Shown here: positions 25,174 to 31,593 of the stretch, one piece after another | Layout of the letters: each line of letters begins with the position of its first letter | Numbering within the stretch: position 1 is the first letter of the stretch | NCBI RefSeq assembly: GCF_003752415.1 | Contig: NZ_RKHG01000001.1 | Coordinates: forward strand, 2,542,001 to 2,606,000 | Length of the DNA stretch: 64,000 bases | Direction of reading: 5' to 3' | Source of the DNA: Luteococcus japonicus | GTDB lineage: Bacteria > Actinomycetota > Actinomycetes > Propionibacteriales > Propionibacteriaceae | Program-made: the position numbers and the translations under genes | Notes under the pieces: model-generated | The model's database searches: none | What the model was told of the DNA's origin: nothing | The model's input: the letters and a program-made list of their open reading frames with translations, nothing else

Positions 25174-26811
25174 ATGTCTTCACTGCCCTCACAGCTCACC
25201 GAGCGGGTCCAGGCCGTCACCGGCACCGATCCGGAGATGCGTCCCGCCACCAAGCCGCAGTTCGGTCACTTCCAGTCGAATGTCGCGTTGCGCCTGGCCA
25301 AGACCGAGGGCAAGCCGCCGCGAGAGGTGGCCGCCGCCATCGTCGAGAAGCTTGATCTTGAAGACCTGTGTGAGCCGCTGGAGATCGCCGGGCCCGGCTT
25401 CATCAACTTCCGGATCAAGGCCGACGTCCTGGCCTCCACGGCCAGTGAGCTGCTGGCCGACGAGCACGCCGGCATCGCCCAGGTTGCCAACCCGCAGCGC
25501 GTCGTCATCGACTACTCGGCGCCCAATGCCGCCAAGCAGATGCACGTCGGCCACCTGCGCAGCACCATCATCGGCGACTGCTTCAACCGGGTGCTGAGCG
25601 CGCAGGGCAATGTCGTCATCCCGCAGAACCACATCGGCGACTGGGGCCGGCAGTTCGGCATGCTCGTCGAGCAGACCATCGACGAGGGTCTTGATCTCGA
25701 TGCTCTTGATCTTGCTGGCGCTGAGGCGCTGTACATGCGCGCCAATGCGCACCTCAAGAGCGACGAGGCCTTCGCCACCCGTTCGCGTGACCGCGTGGTC
25801 AAGCTGCAGGCGGGTGACCCGGAGACCCTGGCCATGTGGGAGAAGTTGATCGCCATCTCCAAGGCCGGCTTCGAGCACACCTACCAGCGGTTGGGTGTCC
25901 TGCTGCAGCCCAAGGACTACGCGGGGGAGAGCATGTACAACAACATGCTTCCCGCCGTCTGCGAGGACCTGGAGGCCCGCGGGATCGCCAAGGTGGACCA
26001 GGGCGCGCTGGCCGTCTTCGTCGACGGCTACGAGGCCCCCGCCATCATGCGCAATTCCCAGGGTGGCTATGGCTATGACGTCACCGACGTGGCGGCGCTG
26101 CGCTATCGCGTCGGGGAGCTCCACGCGAACCGGTTGATCTACGTCGTGGGCTCCGAGCAGACCCACCACTTCAAGTTGATCTTCGGTGTCTGCCGCAAGG
26201 CCGGCTACCTGCCCGACGAGGTCCGGGCCGAGCACGTCGGCTACGGCATGGTGCTGGGTACCGACGGCAAGAAGTTCTCCACCCGTGAGGGCACCGCCGT
26301 GCACCTGGACGACCTGCTGGACGAGGCCGAGCAGCAGGCCGCGCCCAACATTGCCCTGGCCGCCATCAAGTACGCGGACCTGTCCTCCGGCCTGCAGAAG
26401 GACTACACCTTCGACGCCGAGCGGATGACCGCCACCACCGGCGACACCGGCCCCTACCTGCAGTACGCGCACGCGCGGATCTGCCAGATCATGCGCAAGG
26501 CCGAGGCGGAGCAGGTGGAGGTCCCGGATACCATCACCACCCTCGACGAGCCGGCCGAACAGCAGCTCGCACTGCTGCTGAGCCGCTTCGGGGAGGTCGT
26601 CGCCGACGTTGCGGAGACCCTGCAGCCCCACAAGCTGTGCGGCTACCTCTACGAGCTGGCCGGCGCCTACTCCACCTTCTACGAGCAGTGCCCGGTGATG
26701 AAGAGCGAGGGTGAGGTGCGCGCCTCGCGCCTGGCCCTGTGCTCCGCCACCCGCAAGGTGTTGGCCAAGGGGCTCTACCTGCTGGGAATGGACGCGCCCG
26801 AGCGGATGTGA
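25174..26811 (+). CDS. argS: Arginyl-tRNA synthetase
   Basis: A 545-residue class I aminoacyl-tRNA synthetase that charges tRNA-Arg. The N-terminal Add1 domain covers about residues 1-90. The HIGH motif is 'APNAAKQMHVGHLRST', followed by 'HIGDWGRQFGML'; 'DGKKFSTREG' replaces KMSKS, as in many ArgRS. The C-terminal anticodon-binding DALR domain ends 'KVLAKGLYLLGMDAPERM'. Full length. Two short stretches (about 25348 and 25686) use T-ending codons around GATC, unlike the rest. A large inverted repeat follows the stop. Confidence 0.97.
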   Translation: MSSLPSQLTERVQAVTGTDPEMRPATKPQFGHFQSNVALRLAKTEGKPPREVAAAIVEKLDLEDLCEPLEIAGPGFINFRIKADVLASTASELLADEHAGIAQVANPQRVVIDYSAPNAAKQMHVGHLRSTIIGDCFNRVLSAQGNVVIPQNHIGDWGRQFGMLVEQTIDEGLDLDALDLAGAEALYMRANAHLKSDEAFATRSRDRVVKLQAGDPETLAMWEKLIAISKAGFEHTYQRLGVLLQPKDYAGESMYNNMLPAVCEDLEARGIAKVDQGALAVFVDGYEAPAIMRNSQGGYGYDVTDVAALRYRVGELHANRLIYVVGSEQTHHFKLIFGVCRKAGYLPDEVRAEHVGYGMVLGTDGKKFSTREGTAVHLDDLLDEAEQQAAPNIALAAIKYADLSSGLQKDYTFDAERMTATTGDTGPYLQYAHARICQIMRKAEAEQVEVPDTITTLDEPAEQQLALLLSRFGEVVADVAETLQPHKLCGYLYELAGAYSTFYEQCPVMKSEGEVRASRLALCSATRKVLAKGLYLLGMDAPERM

Positions 26812-26849: not shown

Positions 26850-26908
26850 ACAGATGCAGATCCGCTCCCCAGTGCAGTCATGACATCGGGGAGCGGATCT
26901 GCATCTGT
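26850..26908. terminator. Perfect 21-bp inverted repeat after argS
   Basis: ACAGATGCAGATCCGCTCCCC (26850-26870) is exactly complementary to 26888-26908, separated by a 17-base loop that itself contains GTCATGAC, and followed by TTT. It probably terminates argS transcription. The arms are longer and less GC-rich than other terminators in this window, so a small RNA or a mobile-repeat origin remains possible. Confidence 0.65.
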
Positions 26909-26955
26909 TTCCACTACCCACTCCTGAGGGTGGATCGTCCGCGGCCAAGGCTGCC

Positions 26956-26961
26956 TATATT
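26956..26961 (+). promoter_or_regulatory. -10 box for the SbnA-like operon
   Basis: TATATT lies seven bases before the GTG at 26969, predicting leaderless transcription. It is the most AT-rich -10 box seen in this window. No good -35 is visible, so an activator may be needed. Confidence 0.5.
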
Positions 26962-26968
26962 GGTGTGG

Positions 26969-27988
26969 GTGACCCCTGAACCCCGCGACGACCTGTCCCA
27001 GTTGGTCGGCAACACCCCCGTGCTGCGGCTGCACCGTATCTACGAGGCCCCGCATGCCGCACTGTTTGCGAAGTTGGAGCAGTTCAACCCCGGAGGCAGT
27101 GCGAAGGACCGCTCGGCACAGTCCATGCTCGACGATGCGCTGGCCAGCGGCCGGTTGCAGCCCGGCGGTACGGTGGTGGAGTCCAGTTCCGGAAATCTGG
27201 GCGTTGCCCTGGCCCGGGCGTGCACCTTGGCGGACATCCATTTCGTGTGCGTGGTGGACAGCCGCGCGAATCGTGCGACGGTGGACACGATCCGCGCCTT
27301 GGGCGGCCGGATCAGCCTGGTCACCGAGCCGGATCCTCGCACTGGTGACCTCTTGACGGCCCGGCACCAACGCGTCGCGGACCTGGTGGAGGAGATCCCG
27401 GGGGCCGTGAACCTCAACCAGTACGGCAATCCGGCCAACCCTGCCGCGCACCGGAAGGGGACCATGCGTGAGCTGGCGGAAAGCCTCGGCCACCGGATCG
27501 ACGTGCTCCTGGTGGCGACGAGCACGACGGGCACCATCGGCGGCTGTGAGCAGTACGTGCGTGAGCACGGCATGGACACCCGGGTGGTGGCGGTGGATGC
27601 CGCGGGCAGCGTGCTCTTCGGCGGCACCGCGGGTGCGCGGTTGCTGCCCGGCATGGGTGCCGGGCTGGTCACCGAGCTGTCGTCGGCCGTGGAACCCGAC
27701 GAGGTGGTGCGGGTCACGGACCTGCAGTGCGTGGCCGGCTGCCGTGCCCTGGCCCGCCGCGAGGGAGTGCTGGCGGGGGCTTCCAGCGGTGGTGTGGTCT
27801 GGGCGCTGGGGCAGATCCTGCCTGGCCTGCCCGACGGAACCAGAGTGGCGGCCATTCTCCACGACGGCGGAGGGCCCTACCTGGAGACCGTGCACCGCGA
27901 TGAGTGGGTGCTGCAGAACCTGGGCGCGTCGGCGGCCGACGTCGAGGACCTGGTGGCCAGCCTCCCGCCGAAGGGGCGCCCGTGCTGA
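26969..27988 (+). CDS. SbnA/Y4xP-like PLP synthase of the cysteine-synthase family
   Basis: A 339-residue fold-type II PLP enzyme. 'LVGNTPVLRL', PLP lysine in 'NPGGSAKDRSAQSML', 'SSSGNLGVALARAC', the phosphate loop 'TGTIGG' and 'GASSGG' are present. Similarity is to the SbnA type, which joins O-phosphoserine and glutamate to N-(1-amino-1-carboxy-2-ethyl)-glutamate, the precursor of 2,3-diaminopropionate, rather than to housekeeping CysK. The GTG at 26969 matches the -10 box; GTG 26963 is an alternative. It overlaps the next gene by seven bases. Function by family and context, not proven. Confidence 0.82.
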   Translation: MTPEPRDDLSQLVGNTPVLRLHRIYEAPHAALFAKLEQFNPGGSAKDRSAQSMLDDALASGRLQPGGTVVESSSGNLGVALARACTLADIHFVCVVDSRANRATVDTIRALGGRISLVTEPDPRTGDLLTARHQRVADLVEEIPGAVNLNQYGNPANPAAHRKGTMRELAESLGHRIDVLLVATSTTGTIGGCEQYVREHGMDTRVVAVDAAGSVLFGGTAGARLLPGMGAGLVTELSSAVEPDEVVRVTDLQCVAGCRALARREGVLAGASSGGVVWALGQILPGLPDGTRVAAILHDGGGPYLETVHRDEWVLQNLGASAADVEDLVASLPPKGRPC

Positions 27989-29544
27989 GGGTGGCCGTGG
28001 TCGGAGCCGGCCCCAAGGGCCTGCACGCCATCGCCGCGTTGCTTCGTGGTTCGTGGCGCGGCAAGGACCTGCGGGTCGACTGCTTCGACGCGAACCCGCC
28101 CGGCCAGGGCGCGGCCTATGCCTGCGGCCAGCCGGACTGGTTGCGGCTCAACGTGCATCCGCGGGTGCTGCATTTGCCCCCACATCCACCCCTCGACGAG
28201 TGGCTCGCGGCGCGCGGCACTGACCCGTCGGGTGATGTTCCACGTCACGAGGTGGGCCGATACCTGCGGGCTGCAGCCGACGGCCTGCGGCGCGAGGCGG
28301 GGGAGACGCTCGCCTTCCATCCGCACGCCGTCCGCGCCCTGGAGCGGCGGGGCGATGCGTGGCTGGTCCGTCACGACGGCGGGAGCGTGCTGGCCGACGA
28401 GGTGCTGCTGGCCACCGGACACGCCCCGGACCACGACCATGCCCTGCGGCACGCGTGGCGGCCGGCCCCCGGCGTCTTGATGGTGCCGGGGGTCTACCCG
28501 GTGGCGGACAGCCTGTCGCAGGCCCAGGTTCCGGCCGGCTCGGTGGTGGCGGTGCGGGGTGCGGCCCTGACCTTCATCGACTGTGTGCTGGCCTTGACCG
28601 AGGGCCGTCCGCGGGCCGAGTGGCCGCGGCGGATCCTGCCGGTCTCGCGCTCCGGTGCCCTGCTGCTGGCCAAGCCCGCCGTGCCCATGCGGGCCGATCT
28701 GGCGGAGCTGCTGGCCCGTCATGCCGCTCAGTTGCCCGGCCTGCTGGCCGATGCCGCGGCGCCCTTCGAGGCCGCCACACGGGCCACGCGGGCTGCGGCG
28801 GCTGAGCTGTTGACCAGTCAGGGGCAGGCGCACCAGGAGGCAGTGGCCGCCGTCGATGCCGCGCTGACCACGGGTTTCGACCCGGACCTTGCGCCCCAGG
28901 GAAGGGCCCGGGCAGCCCTGCAACGCTCCAACCTGCTGGCCGAACAGGACCATGCGAGTTCACCGTCATGGGCCCTCGGGCGTGCCTGGGCAGCCCTGTA
29001 CGCACCGATGGTCGCGGGCCTGGCCCATCGCAGTCCGGAAACCGTCGAGTGGCGTCGGTTCTCTGCGGCCAGCGCGGTGCTCGAACGCTTCACCTACGGC
29101 CCACCGCTGCCCAATGCGCGTCGGCTGGAGGCCCTGATCTGCCAGCACGATGGCCCCCACGCCTCCTGCACCGCACCGGTCTGCCTGGAGTGGCTCGAGC
29201 GCGGCGTCGGGATCGCAGAAGGGATCACCGGGGTCGGTGACGACGAACGACCGGACGTGGTGGTGGACGCGGTCCTGCCCCCGCCTGGTGCGCAGACGGC
29301 CCGCACGCCGCTGGTCGACGCCCTGATGGTCGACGGTTGGGTCCGGACCGCCATGCCGCGTCGCGGGCTGGAGGTGACTCCGCACGCCCAGTGCGTCGGG
29401 CAGGACGGGTCTTTGACGCCGGGGCTGTCCGCCATCGGACGGCTCACGGAGGACGTGGTCATCGGGCATGACACGCTGTCGGTACGGATGCACGACGAGA
29501 TCGAACGCTGGGCCGCGCGCCTGGCGTCGGAACTGGAGGCATGA
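27982..29544 (+). CDS. FAD/NAD(P)-binding oxidoreductase
   Basis: A 520-residue protein with an N-terminal dinucleotide fold ('VAVVGAGPKGLHAIAALL') and the FAD/NAD(P)-binding architecture of the PF13454 type. It shows 'PPGQGAAYACGQPDWLRLNVHP', 'EVLLATGHAPDHDHAL' and 'ALTFIDCVLALTEGRP'. In staphylococcal and related pathways an NAD-dependent enzyme (SbnB) oxidises the SbnA product to release diaminopropionate. No SbnB homologue is here, so this protein may supply an oxidation step (inference). It overlaps both neighbours, which indicates tight co-expression. Confidence 0.75.
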   Translation: MLRVAVVGAGPKGLHAIAALLRGSWRGKDLRVDCFDANPPGQGAAYACGQPDWLRLNVHPRVLHLPPHPPLDEWLAARGTDPSGDVPRHEVGRYLRAAADGLRREAGETLAFHPHAVRALERRGDAWLVRHDGGSVLADEVLLATGHAPDHDHALRHAWRPAPGVLMVPGVYPVADSLSQAQVPAGSVVAVRGAALTFIDCVLALTEGRPRAEWPRRILPVSRSGALLLAKPAVPMRADLAELLARHAAQLPGLLADAAAPFEAATRATRAAAAELLTSQGQAHQEAVAAVDAALTTGFDPDLAPQGRARAALQRSNLLAEQDHASSPSWALGRAWAALYAPMVAGLAHRSPETVEWRRFSAASAVLERFTYGPPLPNARRLEALICQHDGPHASCTAPVCLEWLERGVGIAEGITGVGDDERPDVVVDAVLPPPGAQTARTPLVDALMVDGWVRTAMPRRGLEVTPHAQCVGQDGSLTPGLSAIGRLTEDVVIGHDTLSVRMHDEIERWAARLASELEA

Positions 29545-30914
29545 TGCGCCAACCTCACGGGGTCGCCCCGCTGACCGCCCGGCTGGAGCCGTGGATGGAG
29601 CAGGTCCTCGCCGACGCGGACGGGTGCTCTGCACTGCTGGAGGAATACGGCTCGCCGGTCAACCTGCTGGACCTGGCCGCCCTGCGACGCAATGCCGAGG
29701 AGCTCGCAGAGCCGGCCCGGCGCCACGGTGTCGACCTGTTGATCCAGGTGGCCCGCAAGGCCAACAAGGCCCTGGCCGTGGTGGATGCCGCCCGCGAGCT
29801 GGGCTTGGGCATCGACGTCGGCGGCCAGGACGAGTTGCTGCAGGTGCTCGGGCGCGGCGTCGACCCGCGCCGGGTGGTGCTGACCGCCGCCGTGAAACCC
29901 ATCAGCCTGTTGCGGCTGTGCCTCGAGCACGACGTGCTGTGCGCCCTGGACAACCTGGACGAGGCCGAGGAGTTGTCCGGGCTGGCACGGCAGCAGGGTG
30001 TGCGGGCCAGGGTGGCGCTCCGGATCCCACCGGACCCGGACAGCGGGCTGCCCCCGTCGCGCTTCGGACTCCTTGCGGAGCAGTGGCTCCAGTGGCTGGC
30101 CGGAGCACCGGCGGTGGAGGTTGAAGGGATCCACTTCCACCTGCACGGCTATGCGGCGCTGGACCGGGTGACGATGCTGGGCCGGGCCCTGGTTCTGGTG
30201 GACGAGTTGCGGGCCCGGGGACATCACCCGTCGAACATCGACATCGGTGGGGGCGTGCCGATGAGCTACCTCGACGACGGACAGCAGTGGCAGGACTTCT
30301 GGACTGCGCACCACGCGGCGCTGGAGACTGGGCAGCCGATCACGTGGCGTGGACACCCGTTGTCGAATGTCTACCCCTACCACCAGGCCCCGGTGCGGGG
30401 TGTCTGGCTGGACGAGGTCCTGGGCGCCGGTCTGCTCGGGGGCAGCGTTGCCGAGCAGCTGCGTGGCCGTGGGCTGCAGCTGCGGTGCGAGCCGGGACGG
30501 GCCATGCTCGACGGCTGTGGAATGACGCTGGCGCGGGTGGTGATGCGCAAGCAGACCAGCGACGGGCTGGACCTGGTGGGTCTGGAGATGAACCGCACGC
30601 AGTGCCGCTCCACGTCCGACGACTTCATGGTGGATCCGCTGCTGGCGCGCCCCGGAACCGCGGGGGCACCCTCGGATCCGGTGGAGGCCTGGCTTGTGGG
30701 CGCCTACTGCATCGAGGCGGAGTTGATCTTGCAACGTCGGATCGCCTTCCCCGATGGGGTGGCGGTGGGTGATGTCATCGCCCTGCCCAATACCGGCGGC
30801 TACCTGATGCACATCCTGGAGAGCGCCAGCCACCAGATGCCTCTGGCCCGCAACCTGGTGCGTGGCACGGACGGCGGATTCCGGCTCGACGCGATCGATC
30901 TCGGCGGGACGTGA
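29541..30914 (+). CDS. Y4yA-type PLP-dependent decarboxylase-like enzyme
   Basis: A 457-residue fold-type III PLP enzyme of the ornithine/diaminopimelate-decarboxylase superfamily, closest to the Y4yA group. The PLP lysine lies in 'IQVARKANKALAVV', the sheet motif 'GIDVGGQDE' and 'VEGIHFHLHGY' follow, 'DIGGGVPM' binds phosphate, and 'EPGRAMLDGCG' and 'GAYCIEAELI' match the C-terminal active-site segments. Relatives act on diaminopropionate- or amino-acid-derived substrates in siderophore and related pathways. The ATG overlaps the previous stop (ATGATG). Probably converts or tailors the product of the two upstream enzymes. Confidence 0.82.
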   Translation: MMRQPHGVAPLTARLEPWMEQVLADADGCSALLEEYGSPVNLLDLAALRRNAEELAEPARRHGVDLLIQVARKANKALAVVDAARELGLGIDVGGQDELLQVLGRGVDPRRVVLTAAVKPISLLRLCLEHDVLCALDNLDEAEELSGLARQQGVRARVALRIPPDPDSGLPPSRFGLLAEQWLQWLAGAPAVEVEGIHFHLHGYAALDRVTMLGRALVLVDELRARGHHPSNIDIGGGVPMSYLDDGQQWQDFWTAHHAALETGQPITWRGHPLSNVYPYHQAPVRGVWLDEVLGAGLLGGSVAEQLRGRGLQLRCEPGRAMLDGCGMTLARVVMRKQTSDGLDLVGLEMNRTQCRSTSDDFMVDPLLARPGTAGAPSDPVEAWLVGAYCIEAELILQRRIAFPDGVAVGDVIALPNTGGYLMHILESASHQMPLARNLVRGTDGGFRLDAIDLGGT

Positions 30915-30978: not shown

Positions 30979-30984
30979 GTGGAT

Positions 30985-31593
30985 GTGACCGATCCCACCT
31001 CCAATGTGCCCGACGAGCAGCACGCACCGCAGCGCCGCCGCACCCCGCCCGAGCACATCCTGGCCCGGGTGGTGACCGGCATCGTGCTGGCGGCGGTGCT
31101 CTTCGTTGCGGTCTTCGCCTGGCGGGTGGTCTATCGCCCGCACCTCGACCAGATGCCCGAGGAGCAGGTCGACGCGCTGCTGGTGCTGGGGCCGTTGAAT
31201 CCCTGGCGGATCGAGATGGCCGAGGACCTGATGCGGCAGGGCAAGGCCAAGAACCTGGTGCTCTCGACGCCGAACATGCCGTGGGATGCCATGTACTGCG
31301 ACGAGAAGCACGACTGGCCGGCGTACTGCTTCCCGCCCAACCCGTCGACCACTCGCGGGGAGGCGATCGGCCTGAGAGACCTGGCTGAACTGCACGGGTG
31401 GATGAGTTTCGCCGTGCTCACGGTGGACTTCCACGCCGCCCGGAGCCGCTTCATCTTCGAGCGCTGTCTGGGCCAGCCGGTCCCTGTCGTCGGGCGCAAC
31501 ATCTCCGAATGGGATCACCAAAGGCCATACCAGGTGGCCTACCAACTGGGCGGCTACCTCAAGGAGATCAAGCTGGGCCGCTGCCCAGCCTGA
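30985..31593 (+). CDS. YdcF-family (DUF218) membrane protein
   Basis: A 202-residue protein with a polar N-terminus, one membrane helix (about residues 25-46) and a DUF218 domain: 'VDALLVLGPLNPWRIEMAEDLMRQGKAKNLVLST', 'STTRGEAIGLRDLAE' and 'VLTVDFHAARSRFIFERCL'. It is a distant relative of the protein at 16464-17162. The reaction is unknown; envelope-related function is assumed for the family. The GTG start at 30985 is set by the -10 box. Converges with ppgK over a 27-base gap. Confidence 0.82.
   Translation: MTDPTSNVPDEQHAPQRRRTPPEHILARVVTGIVLAAVLFVAVFAWRVVYRPHLDQMPEEQVDALLVLGPLNPWRIEMAEDLMRQGKAKNLVLSTPNMPWDAMYCDEKHDWPAYCFPPNPSTTRGEAIGLRDLAELHGWMSFAVLTVDFHAARSRFIFERCLGQPVPVVGRNISEWDHQRPYQVAYQLGGYLKEIKLGRCPA

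Follow-up and report, generated by a model that had tools for sequence, protein, structure and literature searches.

A mobile three-gene operon

Three overlapping genes in the window (the whole 64,000-nucleotide stretch of Luteococcus japonicus DNA that was analysed) constitute a horizontally mobile operon that is passed as one unit between distantly related bacteria, and we give an even chance to the reading that it encodes everything needed to make a small ACEGA-type compound that is N-hydroxylated and decarboxylated. The first gene (26969..27988, + strand) begins with GTG and encodes a predicted SbnA-type PLP synthase of 339 aa; the second (27982..29544, + strand; GTG start, 520 aa) encodes a PF13454 flavoprotein, and the third (29541..30914, + strand; ATG start, 457 aa) a probable Y4yA-type fold-III PLP alpha-decarboxylase. 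All three reading frames are intact. The synthase and flavoprotein genes overlap by 7 bases (27982..27988, + strand), an arrangement likely to couple their translation, and the flavoprotein and decarboxylase genes overlap by 4 bases with the sequence ATGA (29541..29544, + strand). These values agree with the overlaps of 4-7 bases in the original prediction, whose compact three-gene operon is borne out by the overlaps and by the recurrence of the trio.

The same three genes occur in the same order in 26 loci, mostly actinobacterial together with Sulfitobacter plasmids, and because of this recurrence the trio is regarded as a real unit and not as a chance arrangement. It is found in Micrococcales-type genera and in the family to which the window belongs, on both a plasmid and a chromosome in Mycobacteriales, and on plasmids of Alphaproteobacteria. 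For one copy, two bacterial families share 98.8% identity over 6.3 kb. The flanks are not kept: the neighbourhood comparison proposed with the original prediction found no neighbour universal to the 26 trio loci. A PNPOx-like gene lies beside only six copies, those of Brachybacterium and their near-identical counterpart in G027, while LuxR-type genes adjoin the trio in some loci. No transporter or receptor, and no lyase or N-N-forming gene, is kept beside the trio in the compared neighbourhoods, in line with the earlier observation that no transporter is adjacent. The literature searched contained no description of an SbnA-type, PF13454 and Y4yA combination.

The synthase groups with SbnA

The synthase scores 360 bits against the TIGR03945 SbnA model, above the curated cutoff of 349.95 (about 350). 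In a tree that took in the CysK proteins of the host itself and of its relatives, both of which fall outside the SbnA clade, the synthase lies in a supported clade with S. aureus SbnA (96/82), apart from CysK/CBS. A residue check found K46, R132, Y152 and S185 kept, and Arg132, Tyr152 and Ser185, to which O-phosphoserine selectivity has been attributed (PMC12414870), are all present in every trio synthase; they are not all kept in ordinary CysK, in rhizobial y4xP or in the Aureimonas copies. The tree and the O-phosphoserine residues together uphold the SbnA-like identity originally claimed, and the synthase does not cluster with CysK/CysM. Assignment to the SbnA type, as opposed to ordinary CysK/CysM, is thus well supported by sequence comparison, and the enzyme is predicted to convert O-phospho-L-serine and an amino acid, for which L-Glu is the best guess, to an ACEGA-type adduct. 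A cysteate/taurine route was considered and rejected; the cysteate synthase model, whose cutoff is 600 bits, gives 165.

The flavoprotein resembles FzmM and CreE

The flavoprotein matches PF13454 with 92 bits (cutoff 21.8), and its FAD site, whose loss would have spoken against the original prediction, is intact with the motif GAGPKG. A profile search of the PDB returned one strong match, FzmM (8cp2/8cp5; E 7.9e-51 for 8cp2), and the profile scores are 153 bits for FzmM and 91 bits for YdhS. Foldseek with an AF2 model (pLDDT 91) gave 8cp2 as the best match (TM 0.74) and lysine 6-monooxygenase as the next, with the N-hydroxylases DesB and PvdA also among the top matches, and it recovered the FAD, NADP and helical substrate domains of the FzmM fold; since FzmM is perhaps the sole PF13454 member with a known structure, this nearness partly reflects PDB sampling. 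The catalytic Asn (N57) is invariant in the trio, and FzmM Asn62 is Asn in every copy, a match that is not specific by itself because E. coli YdhS also has Asn62. The position of FzmM Arg266 is Lys in all trio copies and that of Arg13 is Lys or Arg in nearly all (Gln in one), where YdhS has Asp and Thr, respectively. Since profile search, predicted fold and conserved catalytic Asn all place the flavoprotein by FzmM/CreE, it is very probably an N-hydroxylating monooxygenase. The aspartate-binding cluster of FzmM comprises R13, R266, R276, R416, R577 and N413; because R266 is changed throughout, R13 is not kept in every copy and the helical-domain residues (Arg409-Arg416) are not alignable by sequence, the protein is filed as FzmM-like and not as an aspartate hydroxylase. 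The family and position originally proposed, a PF13454-type flavoprotein in place of SbnB, stand, and the unspecified FAD-NAD oxidoreductase becomes an FzmM/CreE-like N-hydroxylating monooxygenase. Identity as an SbnB-like dehydrogenase finds no support, N-hydroxylases being the nearest folds.

The third enzyme is a predicted alpha-decarboxylase

The third enzyme matches PF02784 (Orn/DAP/Arg decarboxylase N-domain) with 79.5 bits and is about 30-48% identical to plasmid relatives, many annotated as Y4yA or Orn/DAP/Arg decarboxylase, the former as 'Y4yA family PLP-dependent enzyme'. The PLP lysine, His, GGG loop, EPGR, catalytic Cys and Tyr are all kept, and K73, H200, G236-238, E317-R320, C390 and Y421 are invariant across the trio and other Y4yA clusters (22 aligned sequences). 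Structure matches are to the decarboxylase fold and include SbnH and N-citrylornithine decarboxylase; the enzyme is nearly equidistant from DAP, D-Orn and citryl-Dap decarboxylases. The fold-type III PLP enzyme anticipated as the third gene is confirmed by the PF02784 match and the decarboxylase residues, and its predicted class, a PLP alpha-decarboxylase, is well supported.

A proposed pathway and its alternatives

Family-by-family searches of the whole 3.45 Mb genome gave no match to SbnB (PF02423), NIS synthetases (PF04183), the NRPS condensation domain (PF00668) or SidA-type hydroxylases (PF13434), and because the genome is without these enzymes the pathway plausibly ends within the trio. 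The original prediction, which noted that the SbnB partner is missing and that no NIS synthetase or NRPS is adjacent, and which called for a genome search for siderophore synthetases, thus holds for the entire genome.

In the first step of the proposed pathway, the SbnA-type enzyme would couple the O-phosphoserine-derived aminoacrylate to an amino acid through the latter's alpha-amine. With L-glutamate, the likeliest partner, the adduct would be ACEGA, in which Dap is joined via its beta-nitrogen to Glu. The flavoprotein, whose class as a sister of the FzmM/CreE L-aspartate N-hydroxylases is well supported, would then draw on NAD(P)H and O2 to add oxygen to one of the adduct's nitrogens, most simply the Glu-derived amine, given that its relatives take an amino dicarboxylic acid and modify the amine. 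The Y4yA enzyme would strip the alpha-carboxylate of the Dap half to leave an aminoethyl (ethylenediamine-like) arm; the last two steps may run in either order. The product, perhaps a novel small molecule that binds metal or is bioactive, would leave by a non-dedicated export route or serve inside the cell; no exporter, importer or regulator common to the loci points to its use. Of the diaminopropionate-precursor route originally proposed, the SbnA-type synthase remains, and the FzmM/CreE-like flavoprotein shifts the predicted chemistry from free Dap to N-oxygenation.

A bolder reading, to which we give rather less than an even chance, is that this mobile 4-kb operon without NIS/NRPS genes suffices to make N-oxygenated ethylenediamine/glutamate metabolites of a class not known before, with an FzmM-type enzyme acting on ACEGA and bypassing SbnB. 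If so, ACEGA would be a new substrate for the FzmM family, opening a new substrate class for FzmM/CreE hydroxylases and a new branch of diaminopropionate chemistry, and the trio would be among the smallest complete natural-product pathways known. Programs that find clusters by their NRPS, NIS or transporter genes may well miss the trio, which has none of these, although its spread extends across actinobacterial families and onto plasmids of marine Alphaproteobacteria.

The product could alternatively be a secreted metallophore, either an aminopolycarboxylate or a hydroxylamine chelator released via general exporters, which we consider rather unlikely. Ethylenediamine-type chelators such as rhizobactin are known (PMC7676072), the trio is mobile, and sister systems sharing Y4yA and a synthase lie among siderophore genes, some related Y4yA clusters carrying IucA/IucC, TonB receptor and iron ABC genes and others MATE and iron ABC genes. 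However, scans upstream of the trio found no DtxR, Zur or Fur box at any of the loci covered, though DtxR-like boxes exist elsewhere in the host genome, and with no conserved transporter or receptor either, the metallophore role first envisaged is not supported so far.

It is also improbable, in our estimate, that the flavoprotein stands in for SbnB, oxidising ACEGA at its secondary amine to form a nitrone whose hydrolysis gives 2-oxoglutarate and 3-(hydroxyamino)alanine, the latter of which Y4yA would decarboxylate to 2-(hydroxyamino)ethylamine. This would make the trio an O2-dependent alternative to SbnA/SbnB yielding N-hydroxylated Dap or its amine. The lack of an SbnB family member in the genome and the gene order synthase, N-hydroxylase, decarboxylase are consistent with such a replacement, as are the capacity of the flavoprotein family for successive oxidations (PMC10404684) and a related locus (L086) with SbnB-like and NRPS genes in which neither the flavoprotein nor the decarboxylase of the trio finds a match. 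Against it, the genome holds no downstream consumer (NIS, NRPS), and nitrone cleavage by the FzmM/CreE-type family was not found described in the literature searched.

That the flavoprotein is a true aspartate N-hydroxylase, leading in CreE/FzmM style to nitrosuccinate, nitrite or 3-nitropropionate while the PLP pair makes a separate amine that receives the nitrogen, is very unlikely: its nearest characterised relative, FzmM, does have that activity, but the trio flavoproteins make up a separate clade that excludes FzmM, all copies have Lys in place of Arg266, and no lyase or N-N-forming gene is conserved alongside. A cysteine synthase, housekeeping reductase and diaminopimelate decarboxylase of primary metabolism, neighbours by accident, can practically be discounted: the fold superfamilies are common to CysK and LysA, but the host has separate CysK-like and LysA-like genes, the LysA and CysK model scores are far under cutoff, and the tree that sets the synthase apart from CysK/CBS, the residues and the conserved synteny of a mobile unit rule out ordinary CysK/LysA neighbours.

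Comparison with known systems

The Dap module of staphyloferrin B (S. aureus SbnA/SbnB with SbnH) shares with the trio an SbnA-type synthase with the O-phosphoserine residues and, following the same pathway logic, a fold-type III PLP decarboxylase. The trio differs in having an N-hydroxylase-type flavoprotein where SbnB would be, in its Y4yA being only distantly related to SbnH, and in being without NIS synthetases, transporters and iron boxes. FzmM/CreE (PDB 8cp2, 8cp5) resemble the trio flavoprotein in fold, FAD and NADP domains, catalytic Asn and basic substrate-site positions, whereas the trio protein additionally has mostly Tyr for Trp51, and its partners are an SbnA synthase and a decarboxylase, with no CreD-type lyase seen near the trio. 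The rhizobial y4yA-y4xP-y4xO-y4xN-y4xM cluster (S. fredii type III secretion locus) likewise places Y4yA beside a cysteine-synthase-like enzyme, but that synthase is without Y152 and S185, and the cluster uses an opine dehydrogenase, an IucA/IucC synthetase and an MFS exporter, with no flavoprotein.

The nearest product class is that of Dap-derived, ethylenediamine-containing aminocarboxylates, exemplified by the [S,S]-EDDS (aes) zincophore of Amycolatopsis japonicum, compared here by its description only, and by rhizobactin, which also requires a malate-coupling step. The EDDS genes were found via Zur sites (PMC13379591); the trio has no upstream Zur site. The L-alanosine cluster resembles the trio in combining diaminopropionate chemistry with N-hydroxylation and in having an FzmM/CreE homologue, AlnM; the Dap unit is proposed there to be hydroxylated on a carrier protein by an acyl-CoA-dehydrogenase-like enzyme (PMC11705231, PMC7347517), and the excerpts consulted describe no Y4yA decarboxylase.

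Sequences upstream of the operon

The synthase gene could also start at an in-frame GTG at 26963. The sequence CCTATATT lies just 5' of the first start codon (26955..26962, + strand) and is a possible -10 element that would allow a leaderless start; a sigma-70 scan found nothing. Rfam, tRNA and PHROGs searches gave no matches. Between argS and the operon lies a perfect 21-bp inverted repeat with a 17-nt loop (26850..26908), probably an argS terminator or a dispersed palindrome; palindromes resembling it are present elsewhere in the genome.

A conserved and apparently mobile three-gene unit

The genes for the SbnA-type synthase (26969-27988), the PF13454 flavoprotein (27982-29544), and the Y4yA-type decarboxylase (29541-30914) lie where the original prediction placed them, with its overlaps of 7 bases (synthase/flavoprotein) and 4 bases (flavoprotein/decarboxylase) and with open frames lacking internal stops. 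argS ends upstream at 26811, and a DUF218-type gene (30979-31593) follows. Trio loci were gathered from a decarboxylase scan of bacterial and archaeal genomes, from genomes of relatives, and from plasmid records. The complete trio, conserved in order and strand, was present in 26 loci, counting the window: in Brachybacterium, Kocuria, Timonella, Phycicoccus, Microbacterium, Tomitella, and another actinomycete, on a Tsukamurella plasmid and Sulfitobacter plasmids, and in several further genomes, three of them in the window's own family. Decarboxylases at least ~40% identical were accompanied by both partner genes wherever the flanks were long enough to judge; the incomplete fragments (L039, L041, L056, and L059) stop at contig or record edges. 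The proposed comparison of neighborhoods revealed no other gene common to every trio copy. We conclude that the trio is a real unit.

Sequence comparisons also indicate that the trio is mobile. The copy in G027, a genome of the window's family, is 98.8% identical to that of Brachybacterium nesterenkovii across 6.3 kb and adjoins a mutator-type transposase; we infer that the window's family is distinct from Dermabacteraceae from the large number of its genera and from the families sister to it. The post-argS site in relatives lacks the trio: in G004, argS and a ROK kinase gene are adjacent with ~110 bp between them, and no trio is found at the corresponding site in G001, a 79% complete genome of the window's genus. 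The G018 copy adjoins a gene that, by impression, resembles a phage-type integrase.

Between argS and the trio is a perfect 21-bp inverted repeat with a 17-nt loop (26850-26908). It may be a dispersed repeat, because the same genome (G000, a single 3.45-Mb contig) has further palindromes of identical 35-bp spacing, with related arms, at G000:C1:1508507, 1509514, and 2209493. This genome also has a second flavoprotein copy (L015 9034-10561, minus strand; about G000:C1:2214533-2216060). It shares 46-48% identity with the window copy, its sister, and is frame-split in two, an apparent pseudogene, with no synthase or decarboxylase alongside.

Assignment of the three enzymes

The window synthase scores above the cutoff of the curated SbnA model. 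Among the 56 sequences of a tree, the trio synthases form a supported clade of 24, the window's included, that joins S. aureus SbnA; the genome's own CysK and the CysK/CBS proteins of relatives fall elsewhere, so the clustering with ordinary CysK that would argue against an SbnA-type identity was not observed. Arg132, Tyr152, and Ser185, reported to account for selective O-phosphoserine binding (PMC12414870), are kept in all trio synthases, whereas these positions are Ala/Phe/Gly or similar in ordinary CysK, Arg/Ser/Gly in rhizobial y4xP, and Arg/His/Gly in the Aureimonas synthase.

A profile built from 19 trio flavoproteins and run against the whole PDB gave one strong match (E 7.9e-51; next matches above 1e-7), the L-aspartate N-hydroxylase 8cp2/8cp5 of the FzmM/CreE group from Streptomyces sp. 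V2 (PMC10404684), a nearest-match status tempered by FzmM perhaps being the sole PF13454 enzyme with a solved structure. The confident model of the window flavoprotein (pLDDT 91.4) best matched 8cp2 (TM 0.74, E 1e-22), with lysine 6-monooxygenase second and DesB and PvdA among the top matches. In all trio flavoproteins the FzmM catalytic Asn62 is Asn and the substrate-site Arg266 is Lys; Arg13 is retained or replaced by Lys in every copy except one, and most copies have Tyr in place of Trp51. By contrast, E. coli YdhS, an uncharacterized relative, has Thr and Asp at the two substrate-site positions that are basic in nearly all trio flavoproteins, and it scores 91 bits with the profile versus 153 for FzmM. 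The trio flavoprotein is thus probably an FzmM-like, N-hydroxylating monooxygenase. Filing it as an aspartate hydroxylase was not adopted, because the trio flavoproteins form their own clade outside FzmM and because of the tempered structural match.

The window decarboxylase scored 110 bits against the LysA model (cutoff 298), and its fold matches were D-Orn/Lys decarboxylase and DAP decarboxylase; the hits further included N-citrylornithine decarboxylase and SbnH. Lys73, His200, Gly236-238, Glu317-Arg320, Cys390, and Tyr421, which we take to be the catalytic set of fold-type III decarboxylases, are invariant in 22 sequences. Family and residues predict that the third enzyme is a decarboxylase, its substrate left general.

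Related Y4yA clusters and the metallophore question

The SbnB family (PF02423), NIS synthetase (PF04183), NRPS condensation domain (PF00668), and SidA-type hydroxylase (PF13434) had no match in the L. japonicus genome. The missing SbnB partner and the lack of an adjacent NIS synthetase or NRPS, both originally described for the locus, therefore extend genome-wide, as the suggested search for siderophore synthetases established. DtxR-like boxes occur at four sites in this genome (≤3 mismatches; control pattern, none), and no DtxR, Zur, or Fur box was found upstream of the trio in any locus scanned. A metallophore product, as originally proposed, would fit a Y4yA cluster family that includes siderophore operons, but the trio itself has neither a metal box nor a transporter, and we regard this product as possible rather than probable.

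Rhizobial Y4yA operons on Sinorhizobium (L033 8474-15507) and Bradyrhizobium (L034 8474-18515) plasmids combine ParB-like, Y4yA, cysteine-synthase-like, opine dehydrogenase, IucA/IucC, and MFS genes; the Bradyrhizobium locus further includes iron ABC genes and one for a TonB receptor. Their genes correspond part by part to the retrosynthesis of rhizobactin from ethylenediamine, lysine, alanine, and malate (PMC7676072), and the operon may be a rhizobactin-type pathway. It sits in the S. fredii type III secretion locus, and such a pathway, if real, would account for the gene group there termed 'enigmatic' (PMC3973906). The Aureimonas plasmid operon (L036 7444-16640; ParB-like, OCD, Y4yA, cysteine-synthase-like, and MATE genes), with an adjoining iron ABC transporter and no NIS synthetase, looks like an NIS-free aminopolycarboxylate metallophore cluster. 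Y4yA also accompanies a MATE exporter on plasmids of M. avium (L032 9118-14750, synthase-like and OCD genes adjoining) and M. intracellulare (L035 8926-11756), with copper-resistance or ArsR-type metal regulators nearby.

Proposed pathway

The synthase would join O-phosphoserine to an amino acid, with glutamate the simplest guess, forming an ACEGA-type adduct (Dap linked through its beta-nitrogen to Glu), a reaction that the enzyme's family and residues support. ACEGA is favored as the flavoprotein substrate because it carries an amine on an amino dicarboxylic acid, exactly the kind of group on which FzmM-type enzymes work. Oxygenation of a nitrogen by the flavoprotein and loss of the alpha-carboxylate from the Dap half through Y4yA, each supported by family and acting on a putative substrate, would yield a small N-hydroxylated aminoethyl-glutamate. 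The main alternative is that a nitrone is cleaved, releasing 2-oxoglutarate and N-hydroxy-Dap, in which case the flavoprotein would functionally replace SbnB; we judge it less probable and prefer the N-hydroxylated aminoethyl-glutamate.

Within the literature searched, 'Y4yA' appears only in papers on rhizobial secretion loci and in a single review of ubiquitin ligases, and no description of the SbnA/FzmM-like/Y4yA combination was found. We regard the trio as a new variation on Dap-type chemistry; the enzyme names are strongly supported, and the product is assigned to no named compound. In G039, a flavoprotein that groups with FzmM itself is clustered with SbnA, an SbnB-like gene, and large biosynthetic genes (L020 9106-15831), likely a true nitrosuccinate-type pathway together with Dap.
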